Program-made: the position numbers and the translations under genes
Notes under the pieces: generated by a model
Told to the model about the DNA's origin: nothing
The model's database searches: none
What the model saw: only the letters and a program-made list of their open reading frames with translations
Shown here: positions 3,720-12,858 of the stretch, piece by piece
How the letters are laid out: the number at the start of each line of letters is the position of its first letter
How positions within the stretch are numbered: the first letter of the stretch is position 1
NCBI GenBank assembly: GCA_947169935.1
Contig: CAMVRS010000011.1
Location: forward strand, 1-40,009
Length of the DNA: 40,009 bases
Source: an uncultured Lachnospiraceae bacterium
GTDB taxonomy: Bacteria; Bacillota; Clostridia; Lachnospirales; Lachnospiraceae
Reading direction: 5' to 3'

Positions 3720-5480
3720 ATGGTAAAAAAGTATTTATCTGACATACATCTGGAAGATTATGCTGCCGGATATGAGAATAAAAAAGCAACGCATAAAGAT
3801 ATGGTCTTTGAGGGCGGGAGGGAATTCCTGTCATTGAACGGAGAATGGAATTATGCGGTAGATCAATATGACACCTGCCTGAGACAGAACTGGTACAGGG
3901 AAAGATATGTTGACGAGAGAGGCTTTACACTTCCTGTTGATTATTCTTTTGATGAATGGCCGCTTATGAAACTGCCCTGCTGCTGGAATACTTTTGCTTC
4001 CGAGTATCTTTTATATGAAGGGCCGATGGTATTTACGCGGAAGTTCAGATATGATACTGCAGACAATGGCAGATGTATTTTACGTATCGGAGCCGCTTCA
4101 ATGTTATGCAGGGTTTTTATCAACGGCAGCTATATTGGAATGCATCGCGGAGCTTCAACGCCGTTTTATTTTGATATTACGGAATTGCTTAAGGAAGAAA
4201 ACAGGATCATTCTTTGTGTTGACAGTACCAGGCGGCCGGAACAGGTTCCTACGGAGAATACGGACTGGTTTAATTATGGCGGTGTATTTCGTGACATAGG
4301 ATTGATAACGCTTCCCGGGGTATATATCAGATCATTCAGGATAAATCTTGTACCGGACGGCGGGTTCAATAAGATCCATGCATCAGTATCATTATCTGAA
4401 TGTACAGAGGGAAAAGCAAAGCTTAAGATCGATGAGCTTAAGATAGATGAAGAAGTTGACATCGTAAACGGAAAAGGGGAAACAGAGATTGCTGCGGACC
4501 TGAGATTATGGAGCCCCGAAGATCCGTACCTGTATGATGTGACTTTGTGTTTTAATGAAGATACGGTTTCTGACCGTGTGGGTTTCAGGGAGATAAAGGT
4601 TCAGGGCAGGGAGATACTGCTTAACGGACAGAGTATATTTTTAAAAGGCATCAGTGCCCACGAAGACAGTACAGAGAACGGGCGTGCGTTGACGGATAAA
4701 GAAAGAATAGAGAATATCAGCCTTGCTAAGGAACTGGGATGTAATTTCATGCGTGTTGCACATTATCCCCACCATGAAAGAATGGCAAAGCTTGCCGATG
4801 AGATGGGTATCATGCTATGGGAGGAGATACCTGTATATTGGGCTATACGTTTCGAAAGGGAAGAAACATATGAGGATGCCCATAATCAGCTGGCAGAGCT
4901 GATAGAGAGAGACTATAACAGGGCTTCTGTGATCATATGGTCAGTGGGAAATGAGAATGCCGATACGGACAGCCGCTTAAGTTTTATGAAAGGTCTGGCC
5001 GACTATGCGCATGAAACGGATCCGGGCAGGCTTGTATCTGCAGCGTGCCTTGTAGATGAAGCAGAAAACAGGATCGCGGACAGGCTTGCGGATTCGCTGG
5101 ATATCATAGGCGTTAATGAATATTGCGGTTGGTATTCACCGGATTTTGAACGTCTTCCCGAGCTTATGAAGAACAGTGATCCGGATAAACCTGTGATAAT
5201 AACCGAATTCGGCGCAGACGCAATGCGCGGGAATACGGGGGATCCGGACCGGAAAGGAACTGAGGAATATCAAGCCTGCGTATATGATCGCCAGCTGGAT
5301 ACGCTTTTGAAGATCGATTATGTAAAAGGGATATCACCCTGGATACTGTATGATTTCCGCTGCCCCAGAAGGACCAGCGTTATACAGAAGTATTACAACA
5401 GGAAAGGACTTCTTGATGAAACAAAAACATACCGTAAGCCGGCGTTCTATGTTTTACAGAAATACTATCGGAATAAGTGA
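3720..5480 (+). CDS. Beta-glucuronidase (glycoside hydrolase family 2)
   Basis: This 586-aa enzyme has the GH2 domain order: sugar-binding jelly roll (about 30-190, with [13 protein letters not shown]), immunoglobulin-like domain (about 200-285) and TIM barrel (about 290-586). The acid/base glutamate is E412 in VGNEN and the nucleophile is E496 in ITEFGA. N560-R-K562 (NRKG) matches the N-x-K motif by which beta-glucuronidases recognise the glucuronate carboxylate, which favours GUS over beta-galactosidase. Length is close to E. coli UidA (603 aa). No signal peptide is seen, so it acts in the cytoplasm on imported glucuronides. The start chosen is ATG 3720 with AAAGGA upstream; an in-frame TTG at 3672 lies inside the XRE gene and is unlikely. 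No glucuronide transporter is adjacent. Confidence 0.85.
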
Positions 5481-5501
5481 TCACAGTGGAGGAGCAAAGC
5501 C

Positions 5502-5936
5502 ATGAACACAGCATTGATGGAAAGAAACGGTAAGAGGATAGCAAAGATACTTGAATATGTAGGATACGAAGACAGTGCGATCATAATCGAAAAAGACTGG
5601 GATCTGCAGGTATACTTCAGCGGAAGGGAAGAGGGCTGCATCACCATAGAGATGTGCGCGCATAAGGACATGAACGGAGATTCACTTTTTGATCCGCTTA
5701 TGAGGATAGAGCTCAGCACGGATGAATCCGATAATATCCTGAGCGCCAAGGCGGTTTATTATCTCTCCAGATCGATCTTTGCCGATATCGAGATCTATGC
5801 AAAAGACGATCCCGATTGCTGGAATCCTGAGTTATATGAAAAATACAGCGGACAGCTTGACGAGCGCCTTTGTGACTGGCTGAACACGATCGATATGAGA
5901 AAATACCTGACAGAGGGCAGAATAGAAAAAATTTGA
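5502..5936 (+). CDS. Hypothetical protein, 144 aa
   Basis: A 144-aa acidic, soluble protein of unknown function. The central segment (residues about 33-70, around YFSGREEGCITIEMCAHKD then GDSLFDPLMRIEL) alternates hydrophobic residues as in an antiparallel beta sheet. It loosely resembles small uncharacterised proteins that share an 'NGDLxxDP' turn (DUF6908/DUF1249-like); that resemblance is weak. It has a good ribosome binding site (GGAGGAG) and follows the GH2 gene by 21 bases, so it is probably co-transcribed. It ends just before a hairpin followed by a T-rich tract. No catalytic motif, signal peptide or membrane segment is visible. Confidence 0.65.
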   Translation: MNTALMERNGKRIAKILEYVGYEDSAIIIEKDWDLQVYFSGREEGCITIEMCAHKDMNGDSLFDPLMRIELSTDESDNILSAKAVYYLSRSIFADIEIYAKDDPDCWNPELYEKYSGQLDERLCDWLNTIDMRKYLTEGRIEKI

Positions 5937-5948
5937 AATATAAATGAC

Positions 5949-6007
5949 CGTGTGCCTTTACAAGATTGTTAAGGAAATTAATATGTAAAGGTACACGTTA
6001 TCTTTTT
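5949..6007 (+). terminator. Hairpin with T-tract after the 144-aa gene
   Basis: CGTGTGCCTTTACA (5949-5962) pairs with TGTAAAGGTACACG (5984-5997) over 14 bp with one G-U pair, around a 21-base loop. It is followed by TTATCTTTTT. The 3' arm is part of a 24-bp direct repeat. The loop is long for a classical intrinsic terminator. Confidence 0.5.
5981..6004 (+). repeat. 24-bp direct repeat, left copy
   Basis: This copy is identical over 24 bases to 6512-6535 (shared core TGTAAAGGTACACGTTATC). The two copies frame a 507-bp AT-rich segment holding a start-less ORF and a 78-aa gene. Confidence 0.8.
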
Positions 6008-9216: not shown

Positions 9217-9249
9217 ATAAATGACAGATATGTCATTTATTGGTATAAT
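9217..9249 (+). promoter_or_regulatory. Promoter with inverted-repeat operator for the lipoprotein/VYAGP/rSAM operon
   Basis: ATGACA (9221-9226), a 17-base spacer and TATAAT (9244-9249) make a strong promoter. ATAAATGACA (9217-9226) and TGTCATTTAT (9231-9240) form a perfect 10-bp inverted repeat around GATA that covers the -35 box and spacer. A further TGTCAT half-site lies at 9213-9218. This fits an operator for an unidentified dimeric regulator. Confidence 0.7.
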
Positions 9250-9288: not shown

Positions 9289-10338
9289 ATGAAAAAGAAA
9301 TCTGTAATTGCTGCAATAGGAAAATTTGCATGTATGGTACCGCTGATGGCAATGCTCACCGGCTGTAACGGGAAGGATGTTACGCCGGAGCCGGATAAGC
9401 CGGCTGTAACTTTAGATCCCGCCGATACCACGGAACCCATTGCCACCACCGCACCTGAAAGCCCGGATGAACCTGAGGAAACACCGGCAGGATCAGAGGA
9501 TGATGTAACAGAACCCGTGACTGCCGGCGGAAGAAAAGACGGTGAGCGCTTTGAGGACACCATCATGCTTGAAGGCATGGAGGAGATTGTTAAATACGAA
9601 CATGTAAAGAACGAGGCAATCGGCTTTGAAATGGATTACGATTATGAGAGTTTAGCCCGGAGCAAGGATGCGGGCGTGGAACGTTTCGTTTCCATATATG
9701 ACAATGCGGATTCTCCGGAGAATTATCTTGAGGTGACATTCAGTCCGGAAGACCGCGATACAGCCTCTGAAGCGATCCAGGCGAAGCTTATGAAAAAATA
9801 TGACGTCATGACAGGAATTACCAAGCTGGATAATGCAGGTGACTGTTTTGAGATCGATGCATTATGGGCCAGCGGTGGAGGACCGATCGACCGGATGCAG
9901 ATGGTTTATATCATTCCCGTTTCCGACGGCTGCGTGATCGCTGCGGCGCATTTTGCTGCTGAAGCTTCGGAAGGCTTCGGAAGACGTTTCGCTGAAATAG
10001 TGAATACCATAACAATCATAGACAGGACTGCAGACAGCAGACTTTCTGATGATGAAGTATTTTATGCGATCGTAGATTACTGCCATGACAACTATCCGGA
10101 TCTGGACAAGATAATAGAAGAAGGAGATTATCCGACTTATTGGGATATAGAATCCACCAGCGATAAGGGAGTAGTTATCCTTTTCAGATCGTATACGGGT
10201 GCACAGGTCAGATATTATGTTGATCCTTATTCAGGAGATACCTATGTCACCGAATATGTTCCCGCAATAACCCCGAATGAAGAAATGACGGAAACGCGTT
10301 TAAATGTGAGATATTATCTTAATGCAAAACAGAATTAA
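9289..10338 (+). CDS. Secreted lipoprotein of unknown function
   Basis: A 349-aa lipoprotein. Residues 1-25 are a signal peptide with lipobox LTGC (lipidated C26). Residues about 30-90 form a Thr/Pro/Glu-rich linker of the kind that spans the Gram-positive wall. Two globular stretches follow (about 95-245 and 250-349), with no family I can name with confidence. The first contains ENYLEVTFSPEDRDTASEAI and resembles substrate-shielding or stress-response lipoprotein domains only in general layout. It is the first gene of an operon with a strong promoter and a perfect operator-like inverted repeat 40 bases upstream. The VYAGP-repeat protein starts 14 bases after its stop, so it is a candidate accessory (export, display or receptor) component of that system. 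Confidence 0.75.
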   Translation: MKKKSVIAAIGKFACMVPLMAMLTGCNGKDVTPEPDKPAVTLDPADTTEPIATTAPESPDEPEETPAGSEDDVTEPVTAGGRKDGERFEDTIMLEGMEEIVKYEHVKNEAIGFEMDYDYESLARSKDAGVERFVSIYDNADSPENYLEVTFSPEDRDTASEAIQAKLMKKYDVMTGITKLDNAGDCFEIDALWASGGGPIDRMQMVYIIPVSDGCVIAAAHFAAEASEGFGRRFAEIVNTITIIDRTADSRLSDDEVFYAIVDYCHDNYPDLDKIIEEGDYPTYWDIESTSDKGVVILFRSYTGAQVRYYVDPYSGDTYVTEYVPAITPNEEMTETRLNVRYYLNAKQN

Positions 10339-10351
10339 AGGAGCAGCATCT

Positions 10352-10762
10352 ATGGATAATAATGACGAAAAAAATATGAATAAGGAAATTGATCTGAATC
10401 AGATGATGATGGTTTATGCCGGACCGCAGATGATGGCCGTTTATGCAGGACCGACGCAGATTGGGATGGTTTATGCAGGACCGCCGATGATGGCCGTTTA
10501 TGCGGGGCCTGTGAGCAGTCCTGCTCCTGATAATATGATAGGAATCGGGACGGTAAAGGTCCGTGAGGGGATATACTGCTTCTGCCCGGAATGCGGGACT
10601 ATGTCGAAGGGTGAAAATTTCTGCCGTGATTGCGGAACGCCCTTAAAGGACGCTAAGCGCTACAGGGACTGCCCGGGCTGCGGAACCAGACTCGGTGCGG
10701 AAGAGAAATTCTGTCGCGAATGCGGAAAGAAGCAGGATACGGAGGAGACCGGACTGGCGTAA
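10352..10762 (+). CDS. VYAGP-repeat protein with double zinc ribbon, candidate rSAM-modified peptide
   Basis: A 136-aa protein in two parts. Residues 18-53 hold four near-identical units ending in VYAGP (21-25, 30-34, 40-44, 49-53; spacing 9, 10, 9), each preceded by Met-rich residues (MMM, MMA, IGM, MMA). Residues 76-124 hold two zinc ribbons, each with two CxxC knuckles (C78/C81 with C91/C94, and C107/C110 with C121/C124). A radical SAM/SPASM gene starts 3 bases after the stop. Repeated short aromatic motifs next to such an enzyme are a hallmark of RiPP precursors; here the zinc ribbons would have to act as the recognition part and lie C-terminal to the repeats, which is unusual. The start is ATG 10352, with AAAGGAG upstream. 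Modification is inferred, not seen. Alternative: a zinc-ribbon membrane-associated or scaffold protein unrelated to the neighbour. Confidence 0.7.
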   Translation: MDNNDEKNMNKEIDLNQMMMVYAGPQMMAVYAGPTQIGMVYAGPPMMAVYAGPVSSPAPDNMIGIGTVKVREGIYCFCPECGTMSKGENFCRDCGTPLKDAKRYRDCPGCGTRLGAEEKFCRECGKKQDTEETGLA

Positions 10763-10765
10763 GCT

Positions 10766-11782
10766 ATGGGAAAATATCAGTTAAAACAATGTGTATGGGA
10801 GATCACCCTGGCCTGCTGCTTTTCCTGCAAGTATTGCGGATCCGGCGGTGGTAAGGCAAGGGAGAACGAGCTGAGTGAAGAAGAGTGCTTAAAACTGGCG
10901 GATGATCTGGCAGAGCTAGGCTGCCGTCGTATAAACCTGATAGGCGGGGAGATATTCATGCGCCCTGACTGGAAGAATATTGTAGACCGCCTGGTAAAGA
11001 ACGGTATGGCGGTATGCATAATCAGTAACGGCTATATGATAGACACCGATCTGGCGATGCAGCTTAAGGCACTGAATATAGAATCTTTGGCGCTTTCGCT
11101 GGACGGGCCGGCGTGCATTCATGACCGCTATCGTCAGGAGGGCAGTTTCAAACGTGTGAAACGGGCCCTGGGCGTACTTGCAAATGTGGGAGTGCCCACT
11201 TCTGTTATCAGTACGCTTAATTCGGAAAATGAAAAGACTTTAGAAGAGCTCTATGATTTTCTTATAGATTATCCCATTTTTGCCTGGCAGCTGCAGGCCT
11301 GCCTTCCCATGGGGAATGCATCCCGGTCCGGAGTGGATCACCGATTTGATGTTAAGCGTGTCATACGTTTTGTTGAGGAACATGATGATGCACCTTTCGC
11401 AATAGGGATAGCGGATAACATAGGTTATTTCACACCCGGTGAAGGGTCGCTGCGTGGCAACAGGAGCGGCGTTGCTGTTTATAAGGGATGTCAGGCCGGA
11501 CTTACGGTAATAGGTATCGACAGCATAGGAAATGTTAAAGGCTGCGAATCCCTTTATGATGAAAGATTTTTTGAAGGAAATATCAGGCAGCGCAGCTTAA
11601 AGAGCATATGGGAAGATCCCGATGCCTTTGCATATAACAGGAAGTTCGATACGGATAAGCTTACGGGGAAATGTGCATCCTGTGATAAAAAGGAAGCCTG
11701 CCGCGGAGGCTGCCGTTCAATGGCATATTTTGCAGGCGGAAAACTTTATGAAGCGCCTTATTGTGCAAGAGAATTTCAGTAG
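10766..11782 (+). CDS. Radical SAM/SPASM peptide-modifying enzyme
   Basis: This 338-aa enzyme binds a [4Fe-4S] cluster and S-adenosylmethionine through C17-x3-C21-x2-C24 (in LACCFSCKYCG). It continues with the GGE motif (LIGGEIF) and a partial TIM barrel. Its C-terminus has the full seven-cysteine SPASM pattern: C-x12-G-x4-C (GCQAGLTVIGIDSIGNVKGC), then C-x2-C-x5-C-x3-C (CASCDKKEACRGGC), and a final C in APYC. SPASM enzymes with auxiliary clusters mostly modify ribosomal peptides or proteins by crosslinking, thioether formation or oxidation (for example AnSME and PqqE). The gene follows the VYAGP-repeat gene by 3 bases and has no close ribosome binding site of its own, so translation is probably coupled; that repeat protein is the obvious candidate substrate. 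Its 3' end overlaps the convergent cyclase gene by 7 bases. Confidence 0.9.
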   Translation: MGKYQLKQCVWEITLACCFSCKYCGSGGGKARENELSEEECLKLADDLAELGCRRINLIGGEIFMRPDWKNIVDRLVKNGMAVCIISNGYMIDTDLAMQLKALNIESLALSLDGPACIHDRYRQEGSFKRVKRALGVLANVGVPTSVISTLNSENEKTLEELYDFLIDYPIFAWQLQACLPMGNASRSGVDHRFDVKRVIRFVEEHDDAPFAIGIADNIGYFTPGEGSLRGNRSGVAVYKGCQAGLTVIGIDSIGNVKGCESLYDERFFEGNIRQRSLKSIWEDPDAFAYNRKFDTDKLTGKCASCDKKEACRGGCRSMAYFAGGKLYEAPYCAREFQ

Positions 11783-12858
11783 ACTATCTTGTCCCTGCCG
11801 CTCTGTTTGCCGTCATAGAGTTTGCCGTCGGCATCCTTGAGATTATCGGTGAGGGTCTTCATCTTATCATATTCGGTGAGGCCGTAAGTCATGGTAACGC
11901 TGATATTATGACCGTCGGTCTCCACCAGGATCTTGCGGATACGGCTCTGGACTCTGTAGAGTACGTCTATGGCCTGGTCGCCGTTCATATTGGGAAAGGC
12001 GATAAAGAATTCTTCTCCTCCCCATCTGGCTACAAAGCCGCTGTCTCCCACGGTGGAAGCAAGAGCTGCGGCTACAGCTTTCAGCACCAGGTCGCCTGCA
12101 TCATGACCGTAAGTATCGTTTACTTGCTTGAAGTGATCTATATCGCAGATGCAGATGCTTGCTATCATTTCATCTGCCTTCTTTACAAAATCCTCAAGAT
12201 AATCTATAGCCATGCCACGGTTGTTGAGCCCTGTCAGAGGATCGGTGTTTGCCTTATCCTGCAGCCGTTTATTATATTCTATGAGTTTGTTTTCCATCTT
12301 AAGATTATCTTTGGAAAAGATATGGGCGGCTATGCAGGTGCATAAGATCATGATGAACATGTTGCAGTCCCTGACGCAGCGGTGCGCTGCAGTATTCAGG
12401 GCCAGCAGGGGGAGCCTGCTGCCATAGAGCATGGACATGCCGTGATAGACCGCAAAGGTACAGATACCGAAGACAACCTTATAGGGAAGGCTGTCATAGC
12501 TTGCAAAAAAGAAAATGAATATTACAAAAGGCGGGAATATCTGAAAACTCGAATCCGGTCCGAAAAGCCAGAGCATTGCTGAAGCCCAGACGGTAGTTAC
12601 TATTATAAAGGACCAGACCAGAGGCTTTTTGGGTATAAGATAGGAAAGCACAAATACCATGGAATAAAATACAGCCAGCAGCAGATTGCCTACAGCGGCA
12701 GAATTGATCTTTACCCAGAAAAAACCAAGGGTCATGAACAGGAAGAAGACGATAAGCGTAATGCACAGAATACGCACAAGAACAGCCATTTTCTTTGACT
12801 CATTTTCTCTGGCAGTGTCCTGTGTGATGAATTTTTTGAGCTTCTCCATAAGTGTCAT
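11776..12858 (-). CDS. Membrane-bound GGDEF diguanylate cyclase
   Basis: A 360-aa protein that makes cyclic di-GMP from two GTP. Residues about 28-180 contain about six hydrophobic segments, a membrane sensor module without a recognised ligand domain. A short helical linker (about 183-203, NKLIEYNKRLQDKANTDPLTG) leads into the GGDEF domain (about 205-360). The active-site motif is GGEEF (280-284), which is catalytically competent. The RxxD inhibitory site that normally precedes it is absent (GDSGFVAR), so product inhibition is probably lost. It is convergent with the radical SAM gene and divergent from the sugar sensor operon. The start codon context is weak; a Met three codons later is possible. 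No phosphodiesterase (EAL/HD-GYP) is in the window. Confidence 0.88.
   Translation of the reverse strand: MTLMEKLKKFITQDTARENESKKMAVLVRILCITLIVFFLFMTLGFFWVKINSAAVGNLLLAVFYSMVFVLSYLIPKKPLVWSFIIVTTVWASAMLWLFGPDSSFQIFPPFVIFIFFFASYDSLPYKVVFGICTFAVYHGMSMLYGSRLPLLALNTAAHRCVRDCNMFIMILCTCIAAHIFSKDNLKMENKLIEYNKRLQDKANTDPLTGLNNRGMAIDYLEDFVKKADEMIASICICDIDHFKQVNDTYGHDAGDLVLKAVAAALASTVGDSGFVARWGGEEFFIAFPNMNGDQAIDVLYRVQSRIRKILVETDGHNISVTMTYGLTEYDKMKTLTDNLKDADGKLYDGKQSGRDKIVY

Follow-up and report, generated by a model that had tools for sequence, protein, structure and literature searches.

The PlpXY pair of Pleurocapsa is reportedly a splicease/spliceotide system, in work attributed to Morinaka 2018 and Scott 2022. 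The available text of PMC11002830 places PlpX in IPR026482 and describes excision of tyramine at Xaa-Tyr-Gly with an alpha-keto amide left behind, and the accessible parts of PMC11117315 and PMC10373908 present spliceotide products as protease inhibitors. Scott 2022, as a review summarizes it in the portion available (PMC10373908), reports that spliced peptides and proteins are widely used, and the tags used in PlpXY labelling contain PIRPLYGLPI, according to an excerpt of PMC10533398. Here, we compared these systems with a locus in the window, i.e., the whole stretch of 40,009 nucleotides (positions 1 to 40,009, forward strand) of contig CAMVRS010000011.1 from an uncultured Lachnospiraceae bacterium (GCA_947169935.1), in which the gene of a small protein with four copies of the pentapeptide VYAGP, called the tag below, is followed by the gene of a radical S-adenosylmethionine (SAM)/SPASM enzyme. 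This enzyme probably rewrites the VYAGP tag in at least two of the organism's own proteins, most likely by removal of part of the Tyr.

The radical SAM/SPASM gene and the tagged protein are a conserved pair. A peptide-pattern scan of an 84,980-species collection gave 32 loci, ten of which name a ruminant gut site in their titles, and a search for the enzyme in the window's family (299 genomes) gave 14 genomes with a match at E ≤ 1e-40, ten of them (the window's included) in one close clade. From both searches, this close clade comprised 38 rows of at least 55% identity, the window and one repeat included (L038, with an enzyme identical to that of L016 and a contig of equal length); the counts leave aside two archaeal loci (L033/L034), two enzymes cut by contig ends (L035/L036), a distant clade (L046-L051) and copies of the window (L054-L057). 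The results showed that in 35 of the 38 rows (34/37 without L038) an open reading frame (ORF) bearing the tag in the form x-Y-x-x-P ends near the enzyme start, with one to eight copies per paired ORF. The single-copy WXG100, FHA-like and kinase loci are weaker cases of this pairing, and L045, which has no tagged ORF upstream, carries IYAPP on a convergent ORF downstream. Because the tag pattern had been refined on these first loci, the test was repeated on a further draw of 391 genomes of the class, which yielded five new enzymes, four from one genus. All five adjoin tagged ORFs, four of them upstream and one (L160) downstream only, and L158 carries ten copies. The earlier note on this DNA had proposed looking for VYAGP-repeat proteins beside radical SAM genes and for conservation of the motif at varying copy number, and both were borne out by these loci, with one to ten copies in which Tyr and Pro hardly vary.

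The pairing extends to whole genomes of the family. At least two copies of M-x-x-VYAGP were found in five of the ten close-enzyme genomes and in none of the 289 others (Fisher p 1.3e-8), this strict pattern being unmatched in the other five enzyme-positive genomes; single matches in five enzyme-free genomes lay in unrelated or doubtful frames and looked like chance. Looser markers were rejected: VYAGP[DE] was present in 192 of the 299 genomes, one source by eye being ribosomal protein L13 (VYAGPEHNHAA), and xYAGP occurred at 16 places in the window genome, four of them the window's own, versus 26 for the reversed control. Some tagged proteins have no adjacent enzyme and occur in trans, in genomes with the enzyme elsewhere. 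In the window genome, such a second protein (contig C257, 2285-2947) carries VYGGP, AYAGP and VYAGP with a zinc ribbon; the genomes of L006 and L008 hold unlinked proteins with a double zinc ribbon and three and two copies, respectively, the former resembling the window substrate. The earlier note had taken routine occurrence of repeat homologues away from radical SAM genes as evidence against the system; multi-copy tags of the M-x-x-VYAGP form were absent from all 289 enzyme-free genomes of the family, but substrates unlinked to their enzyme do exist. Two phage records held distant matches only, at 24-27% identity.

The tag is strongly non-random and its Tyr and Pro are nearly fixed. VYAGP occurs 87 times in the 36 tagged ORFs versus 0.006 in shuffles, and none of 20,000 shuffles of the open frame of the window substrate, in its 146-aa version, contained two or more. 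Among 128 copies collected with a pattern that itself fixed Tyr and Pro, the residue before Tyr (−1) is Val in 104, the one after it (+1) is Ala in 113 and otherwise Met (8), Asn (4) or Gly (3), position +2 is Gly in 111, and position −4 is Met in 73. When neither Tyr nor Pro was fixed, 34 ORFs held 85 exact copies and 33 with one change from VYAGP, the shuffle expectation for windows within one change being 0.7, and the single changes fell 13 times on V, 13 on A, six on G, once on Y and never on P. The tag Tyr is strongly suggested as the target. Furthermore, VYAGP and VYGGP alternate inside single precursors, LYGAP and VYGGP tags were seen in relatives of the window, three neighbouring DUF1843 genes carry LYAAG, MYAAS and PYGAG, and two enzyme tails of a single genome bin have GYGLP and GYALP, an Ala/Gly exchange after Tyr.

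The window enzyme matched Radical_SAM (1.3e-25) and SPASM (6.8e-07) in Pfam. Its SPASM cysteines are C242, C260, C303, C306, C312, C316 and C333, and in an alignment of 40 sequences (the window and 39 relatives) all cluster cysteines are invariant except C242, conserved in at least 90%. Relative to its nearest relative, L005, 130 of the 337 enzyme codons differ synonymously and 40 change the amino acid, so the enzyme is under constraint. In NCBIfam, the enzyme ranked first with TIGR04103 (1.4e-67, 228.1 bits) and second with TIGR03913 (1.3e-60, 205 bits), both scores lying below the family cut-offs (725 for TIGR04103), and third with mycofactocin (4.1e-42, 145 bits); no enzyme over the TIGR04103 cut-off was found in 96 order-level genomes, the window's included. 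Among the best 60 of 218 plasmid rows, TIGR04103/TIGR03913 enzymes and unnamed relatives scored 167-239 bits, and MftC, NirJ, TIGR04053 and others at most 128. A tree of 62 rows united all 38 enzymes of the tag clade (support 100/100) within an ingroup of TIGR04103/03913-type, XYG-type and archaeal enzymes, and the branch splitting this ingroup from MftC, NirJ, TIGR04053 and others had support of 99/97. The order of groups within the ingroup is weakly supported (82/73), and the root is unsure because the outgroup branches are long. Tag-clade enzymes carry the ingroup signatures CxxCGS, WQ[LIV]Q with an MGN-like triplet after it, and a NIGYY-like stretch, which were unseen in the MftC, NirJ and TIGR04053 rows; all that MftC has in common with them is C-x-A-G at the first auxiliary cysteine. 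By tree position and signature residues, the window enzyme groups with the TIGR04103/TIGR03913 superfamily, in which we take PlpX to lie. In Nostoc, an enzyme with the annotation 'nif11-class peptide radical SAM maturase 3' (TIGR04103) adjoins a Nif11 precursor ending in IALYGLPPELF, which supports the match of IPR026482 with TIGR04103 that we presume.

The AlphaFold model of the enzyme (predicted local distance difference test, pLDDT, 93) has a SPASM fold near those of SuiB, SkfB, PqqE and anSME. No splicease was among the structure matches listed, which excludes nothing. The leading part of SuiB, SkfB and the 5WGG/5WHY enzymes is an N-terminal recognition domain, and the model aligns to these only from their residues 88-101 onward, suggesting that recognition lies mainly in the tag.

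On this basis, we consider it rather likely that a splicease-like radical SAM/SPASM enzyme acts at V-Y-A of the tag. This reading is drawn from the TIGR04103/TIGR03913 affinity, the action of PlpX on Xaa-Tyr-Gly, the Ala/Gly exchange and the Nostoc LYGLP precursor, together with the retained pairing, the restriction of multi-copy tags to enzyme-bearing genomes and the near-fixed Tyr and Pro. The enzyme would recognize x-V-Y-[A/G]-G-P directly, apparently without a leader or partner protein, and tyramine would be lost from the tag Tyr, with Ala tolerated where spliceases have Gly. In the window genome, the substrates would be the double-zinc-ribbon protein and the second, unlinked zinc-ribbon protein, and the outcome would be a series of sites in resident proteins that are reactive or changed in structure, rather than an exported peptide. 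As a guess at the role, the ketoamide might trap proteases or amines, protease trapping being a possibility in view of the inhibitory action of spliceotides, or it might serve as a conformational switch.

Several points weigh against this reading. The score lies far from the TIGR04103 cut-off, and the correspondence of this family with IPR026482 is our assumption. Behind the Nostoc enzyme lies a gene that resembles PlpY in its position alone and has no Pfam match. Ala exceeds Gly after the Tyr, and VYA differs from the PlpXY splice site, described as XYG in the available part of PMC10373908. Only two FtsZ tag constructs were accepted in the PlpXY labelling work, according to an excerpt of PMC10533398, so sequence context matters. 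Pfam found no Nif11 or NHLP leader family in the window substrate, and no small ORF (30-120 aa) beyond the enzyme and the tagged gene recurred in more than five of the 38 rows within 1.5 kb, in a search where ten rows had less than 1.5 kb of flank on one or both sides. In addition, the enzyme-borne tag tail of L030 was disordered in AlphaFold (pLDDT about 28-42), with no docking.

Compared with the described spliceases, the present system shares a superfamily (by the presumed IPR-TIGR match) and the residues that mark a TIGR04103 enzyme. In both, the tag is centred on Tyr, with a small residue next to it and Pro at +3 (LYGLP, VYAGP), and one protein can hold several sites; spliceases, as far as the review text goes, are also used on proteins and not only on peptides. 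It differs in having mostly Ala after Tyr (VYA in the window, with VYGGP in the window genome's second substrate) where the PlpXY type has Gly, in lacking a leader in the window substrate and a conserved small partner where the PlpXY type has a Nif11/NHLP leader and a PlpY-like protein, and in its zinc-ribbon, FHA-kinase and WXG100 scaffolds with no conserved export genes. By the tests made on score, partner and leader, it is not a PlpXY-type spliceotide system, although as far as sequence can tell it works like one.

Other members of the same ingroup show related arrangements. TIGR03913 'GDL motif' enzymes are found with DUF1843 proteins (Azospirillum, Aureibacter) that carry PYGPA, LYAAG, MYAAS or PYGAG near the N-terminus, with the Ala/Gly exchange seen here; their tag, in contrast to the present one, is single, N-terminal and on a short domain. 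A zinc-ribbon-like stretch, below the Pfam threshold, lies in the long C-terminal part of the GDL enzyme, whereas here the ribbon is on the substrate. Such stretches were seen in the GDL-type enzymes L066 (3890-5440, sub-threshold Pfam) and L068 (3947-5371, by eye). The zinc ribbon may be a docking module that swapped sides between the GDL-type enzyme and the VYAGP-clade substrate. In the window's family, KYGYP-repeat proteins (L046, L049, L050) are likewise larger proteins next to a homologous enzyme (33-38% identity) and repeat a tag centred on Tyr with Pro at +3; they differ in an XYG site proper, mostly Lys before Tyr, a different N-terminal scaffold, and a longer enzyme (with TPR in L046). 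These three proteins have a common N-terminal domain, NYGWCL-x-x-LP-x-G, for which Pfam, run on two of the three, gave no family above cut-off; a guess at a chagasin-like inhibitor received no name from Pfam. In the archaeal loci L033 and L034 (Thermoplasmatota), homologous enzymes follow small ORFs, membrane-like by eye, with a YP[FY]A stretch and ends near YGVF, YGTY or YGAY; these are possible further substrates of this enzyme kind.

Alternatively, the tag Tyr could be modified without excision, by a C-C or C-O crosslink (Val-Tyr or Tyr-Pro), desaturation, hydroxylation or epimerization, which we regard as unlikely. The chemistries of SuiB, SkfB, PqqE and anSME, near which the SPASM fold lies, vary widely, and the residue after Tyr departs from XYG. 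MftC, the mycofactocin maturase, is also a radical SAM/SPASM enzyme that works on an adjacent Val and Tyr, as far as the accounts available go. MftC acts on a C-terminal Tyr with MftB, annotated beside it, as partner, in a redox-cofactor pathway and from a separate clade of the tree, whereas the Tyr residues here are internal and no small neighbour recurs. A triceptide aromatic residue is bonded to a beta carbon two positions on, and the available text of PMC11002830 likewise has three-residue cyclophanes link i and i+2; here the i+2 residue on the C-terminal side is Gly, without a beta carbon, in 111/128 copies, leaving other ring directions. Sactipeptides and ranthipeptides have Cys thioether donors in the core; the Cys of the window substrate are confined to the zinc ribbon part and the repeat region has none, so the earlier note was right to exclude sactionine chemistry. 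The nearest characterized superfamily, moreover, is the splicease one.

It is improbable that the tag is only a docking site or spacer, with the real target elsewhere in the protein or a small molecule. Besides the tag, 24 of the 36 tagged ORFs (L009, L010, L014, L041 and others), on zinc-ribbon and kinase scaffolds alike, contain the short motif YP-x-[NS], frequently with [YF]A-like residues after it. This motif could be such a target, but it is missing from the window substrate; the tag, with its hardly varying Tyr and Pro, is the sole feature found on every scaffold. That a low-complexity linker lies beside a radical SAM gene by chance is very improbable: zinc-ribbon proteins are common and the linkers before zinc ribbons can be Met-rich, but the excess of VYAGP over shuffles, the pairing kept in both draws and the confinement of multi-copy tags to enzyme-bearing genomes all argue against it.

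The tagged proteins are of several scaffolds. Of the 36 tagged ORFs, 27 have one or more CxxC pairs like those of zinc ribbons, and the nine without include a WXG100 protein (L025, Pfam 3.4e-11), a protein-kinase-FHA protein (L043, read as L103; Pfam 1.6e-16 and 1.4e-16) and an FHA-like protein (L030, by eye). Tails of the form GYGLPDED or GYALPEED are even borne C-terminally by the enzymes of L030, where the tail continues with YAPPEFM, and of the fragment L036, which come from the same genome bin. From these sequences, the tag behaves like a local mark carried by resident proteins of unrelated scaffolds and not as a classical RiPP (ribosomally synthesized and post-translationally modified peptide). 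No conserved leader, RiPP recognition element, protease or transporter was found among the linked genes of the loci compared, a search covering only these and not the rest of the genome; no other gene family of at least 80 aa recurred in more than six loci, and Pfam matches for ten genes neighbouring two of the loci pointed to no functional context. With several scaffolds, unlinked tagged proteins and no leader/core/export pattern, the earlier idea of a precursor peptide with a modified core does not match what is seen. As to the suggestion of an undescribed RiPP-like system, the literature covered, which did not include Scott 2022, gave no named family for the VYAGP tag and no report that links a radical SAM enzyme to WXG100, a zinc ribbon or YAGP; the enzyme is of a known kind, in the TIGR04103/TIGR03913 grouping. 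Scott 2022 may already contain relatives of these proteins. As side observations, the tagged protein of L005 shares one open frame with a CobB/CbiA-like ORF (3967-5997, by eye), and that of the L008 genome lies between CbiB-like and CobQ-like genes (L157, 4572-5393, by eye), both possibly by chance; in L103 (7075-18281), the genes of the kinase-FHA protein and its enzyme belong to a row of genes on one strand, among them those of a Band_7_1 (SPFH) zinc-ribbon protein and of several proteins without a Pfam family above cut-off.

The features of the window locus are listed in Table 1. The earlier note had placed the four VYAGP motifs and their even spacing correctly, with steps of 9, 10 and 9 residues, and its radical SAM gene 3 bases on with every expected cluster cysteine was confirmed by coordinates (stop to ATG) and alignment. 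The substrate gene is preceded by a probable Shine-Dalgarno sequence, AAAGGAG (10337-10343, by eye), an earlier ATG at 10322 opens the 146-aa version, and the zinc ribbon matched Pfam DZR at 1.3e-08. Profile searches gave no family for the lipoprotein-like ORF, and its gene fell into no gene cluster common to at least three of the loci compared. The promoter overlaps an inverted repeat whose two 10-nt arms (9217-9226 and 9231-9240) pair perfectly. The operon limits drawn earlier are real as elements (promoter, inverted repeat, convergent gene), but the promoter precedes the lipoprotein gene and not the conserved part; gene and promoter are context only, since the relatives' loci do not share them.

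Table 1. Features of the tagged-protein locus in the window.
Feature	Position	Strand	Remarks
Sigma-70-like promoter	9221..9249	+	11/12 positions; before lipoprotein gene
Lipoprotein-like ORF (by eye)	9289..10338	+	349 aa; ends 13 bases before substrate gene
Tagged substrate gene	10352..10762	+	136-aa protein: short N-terminus, four VYAGP, double zinc ribbon
VYAGP copy 1	10412..10426	+	Residues 21-25
VYAGP copy 2	10439..10453	+	Residues 30-34
VYAGP copy 3	10469..10483	+	Residues 40-44
VYAGP copy 4	10496..10510	+	Residues 49-53
Double zinc ribbon of substrate	10583..10723	+	Four CxxC pairs; Pfam DZR/Zn_Ribbon_1
Radical SAM/SPASM enzyme gene	10766..11782	+	338 aa; splicease-like clade; no extra N-terminal domain
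CxxxCxxC of SAM [4Fe-4S] cluster	10814..10837	+	C17, C21, C24, then G-S
SPASM region	11489..11764	+	Auxiliary-cluster cysteines C242 to C333
Convergent gene, GGDEF-like by eye	11776-12858	-	7-base overlap with enzyme 3' end

Taken more broadly, and tentatively, the locus may represent a general tag-directed system of two genes only, in which a leader-free, partner-free enzyme would place backbone alpha-keto-beta-amino residues at V-Y-[A/G]-G-P tags, which evolution would have added in up to ten copies to zinc-ribbon, FHA-kinase and WXG100 proteins, with unlinked substrates in trans, and which would not be a peptide natural-product pathway. Splicing of the tag would mean that a short sequence with no leader suffices to put a reactive ketoamide into a protein at several sites, which would offer a practical labelling tag and would widen the known splice site from XYG to XYA. 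Ribosomal beta-amino acids would then have a function in regulatory or secretion proteins of the cell itself. Many related gut bacteria carry the enzyme-tag pair, which resembles an unusual branch of a known protein-splicing chemistry.

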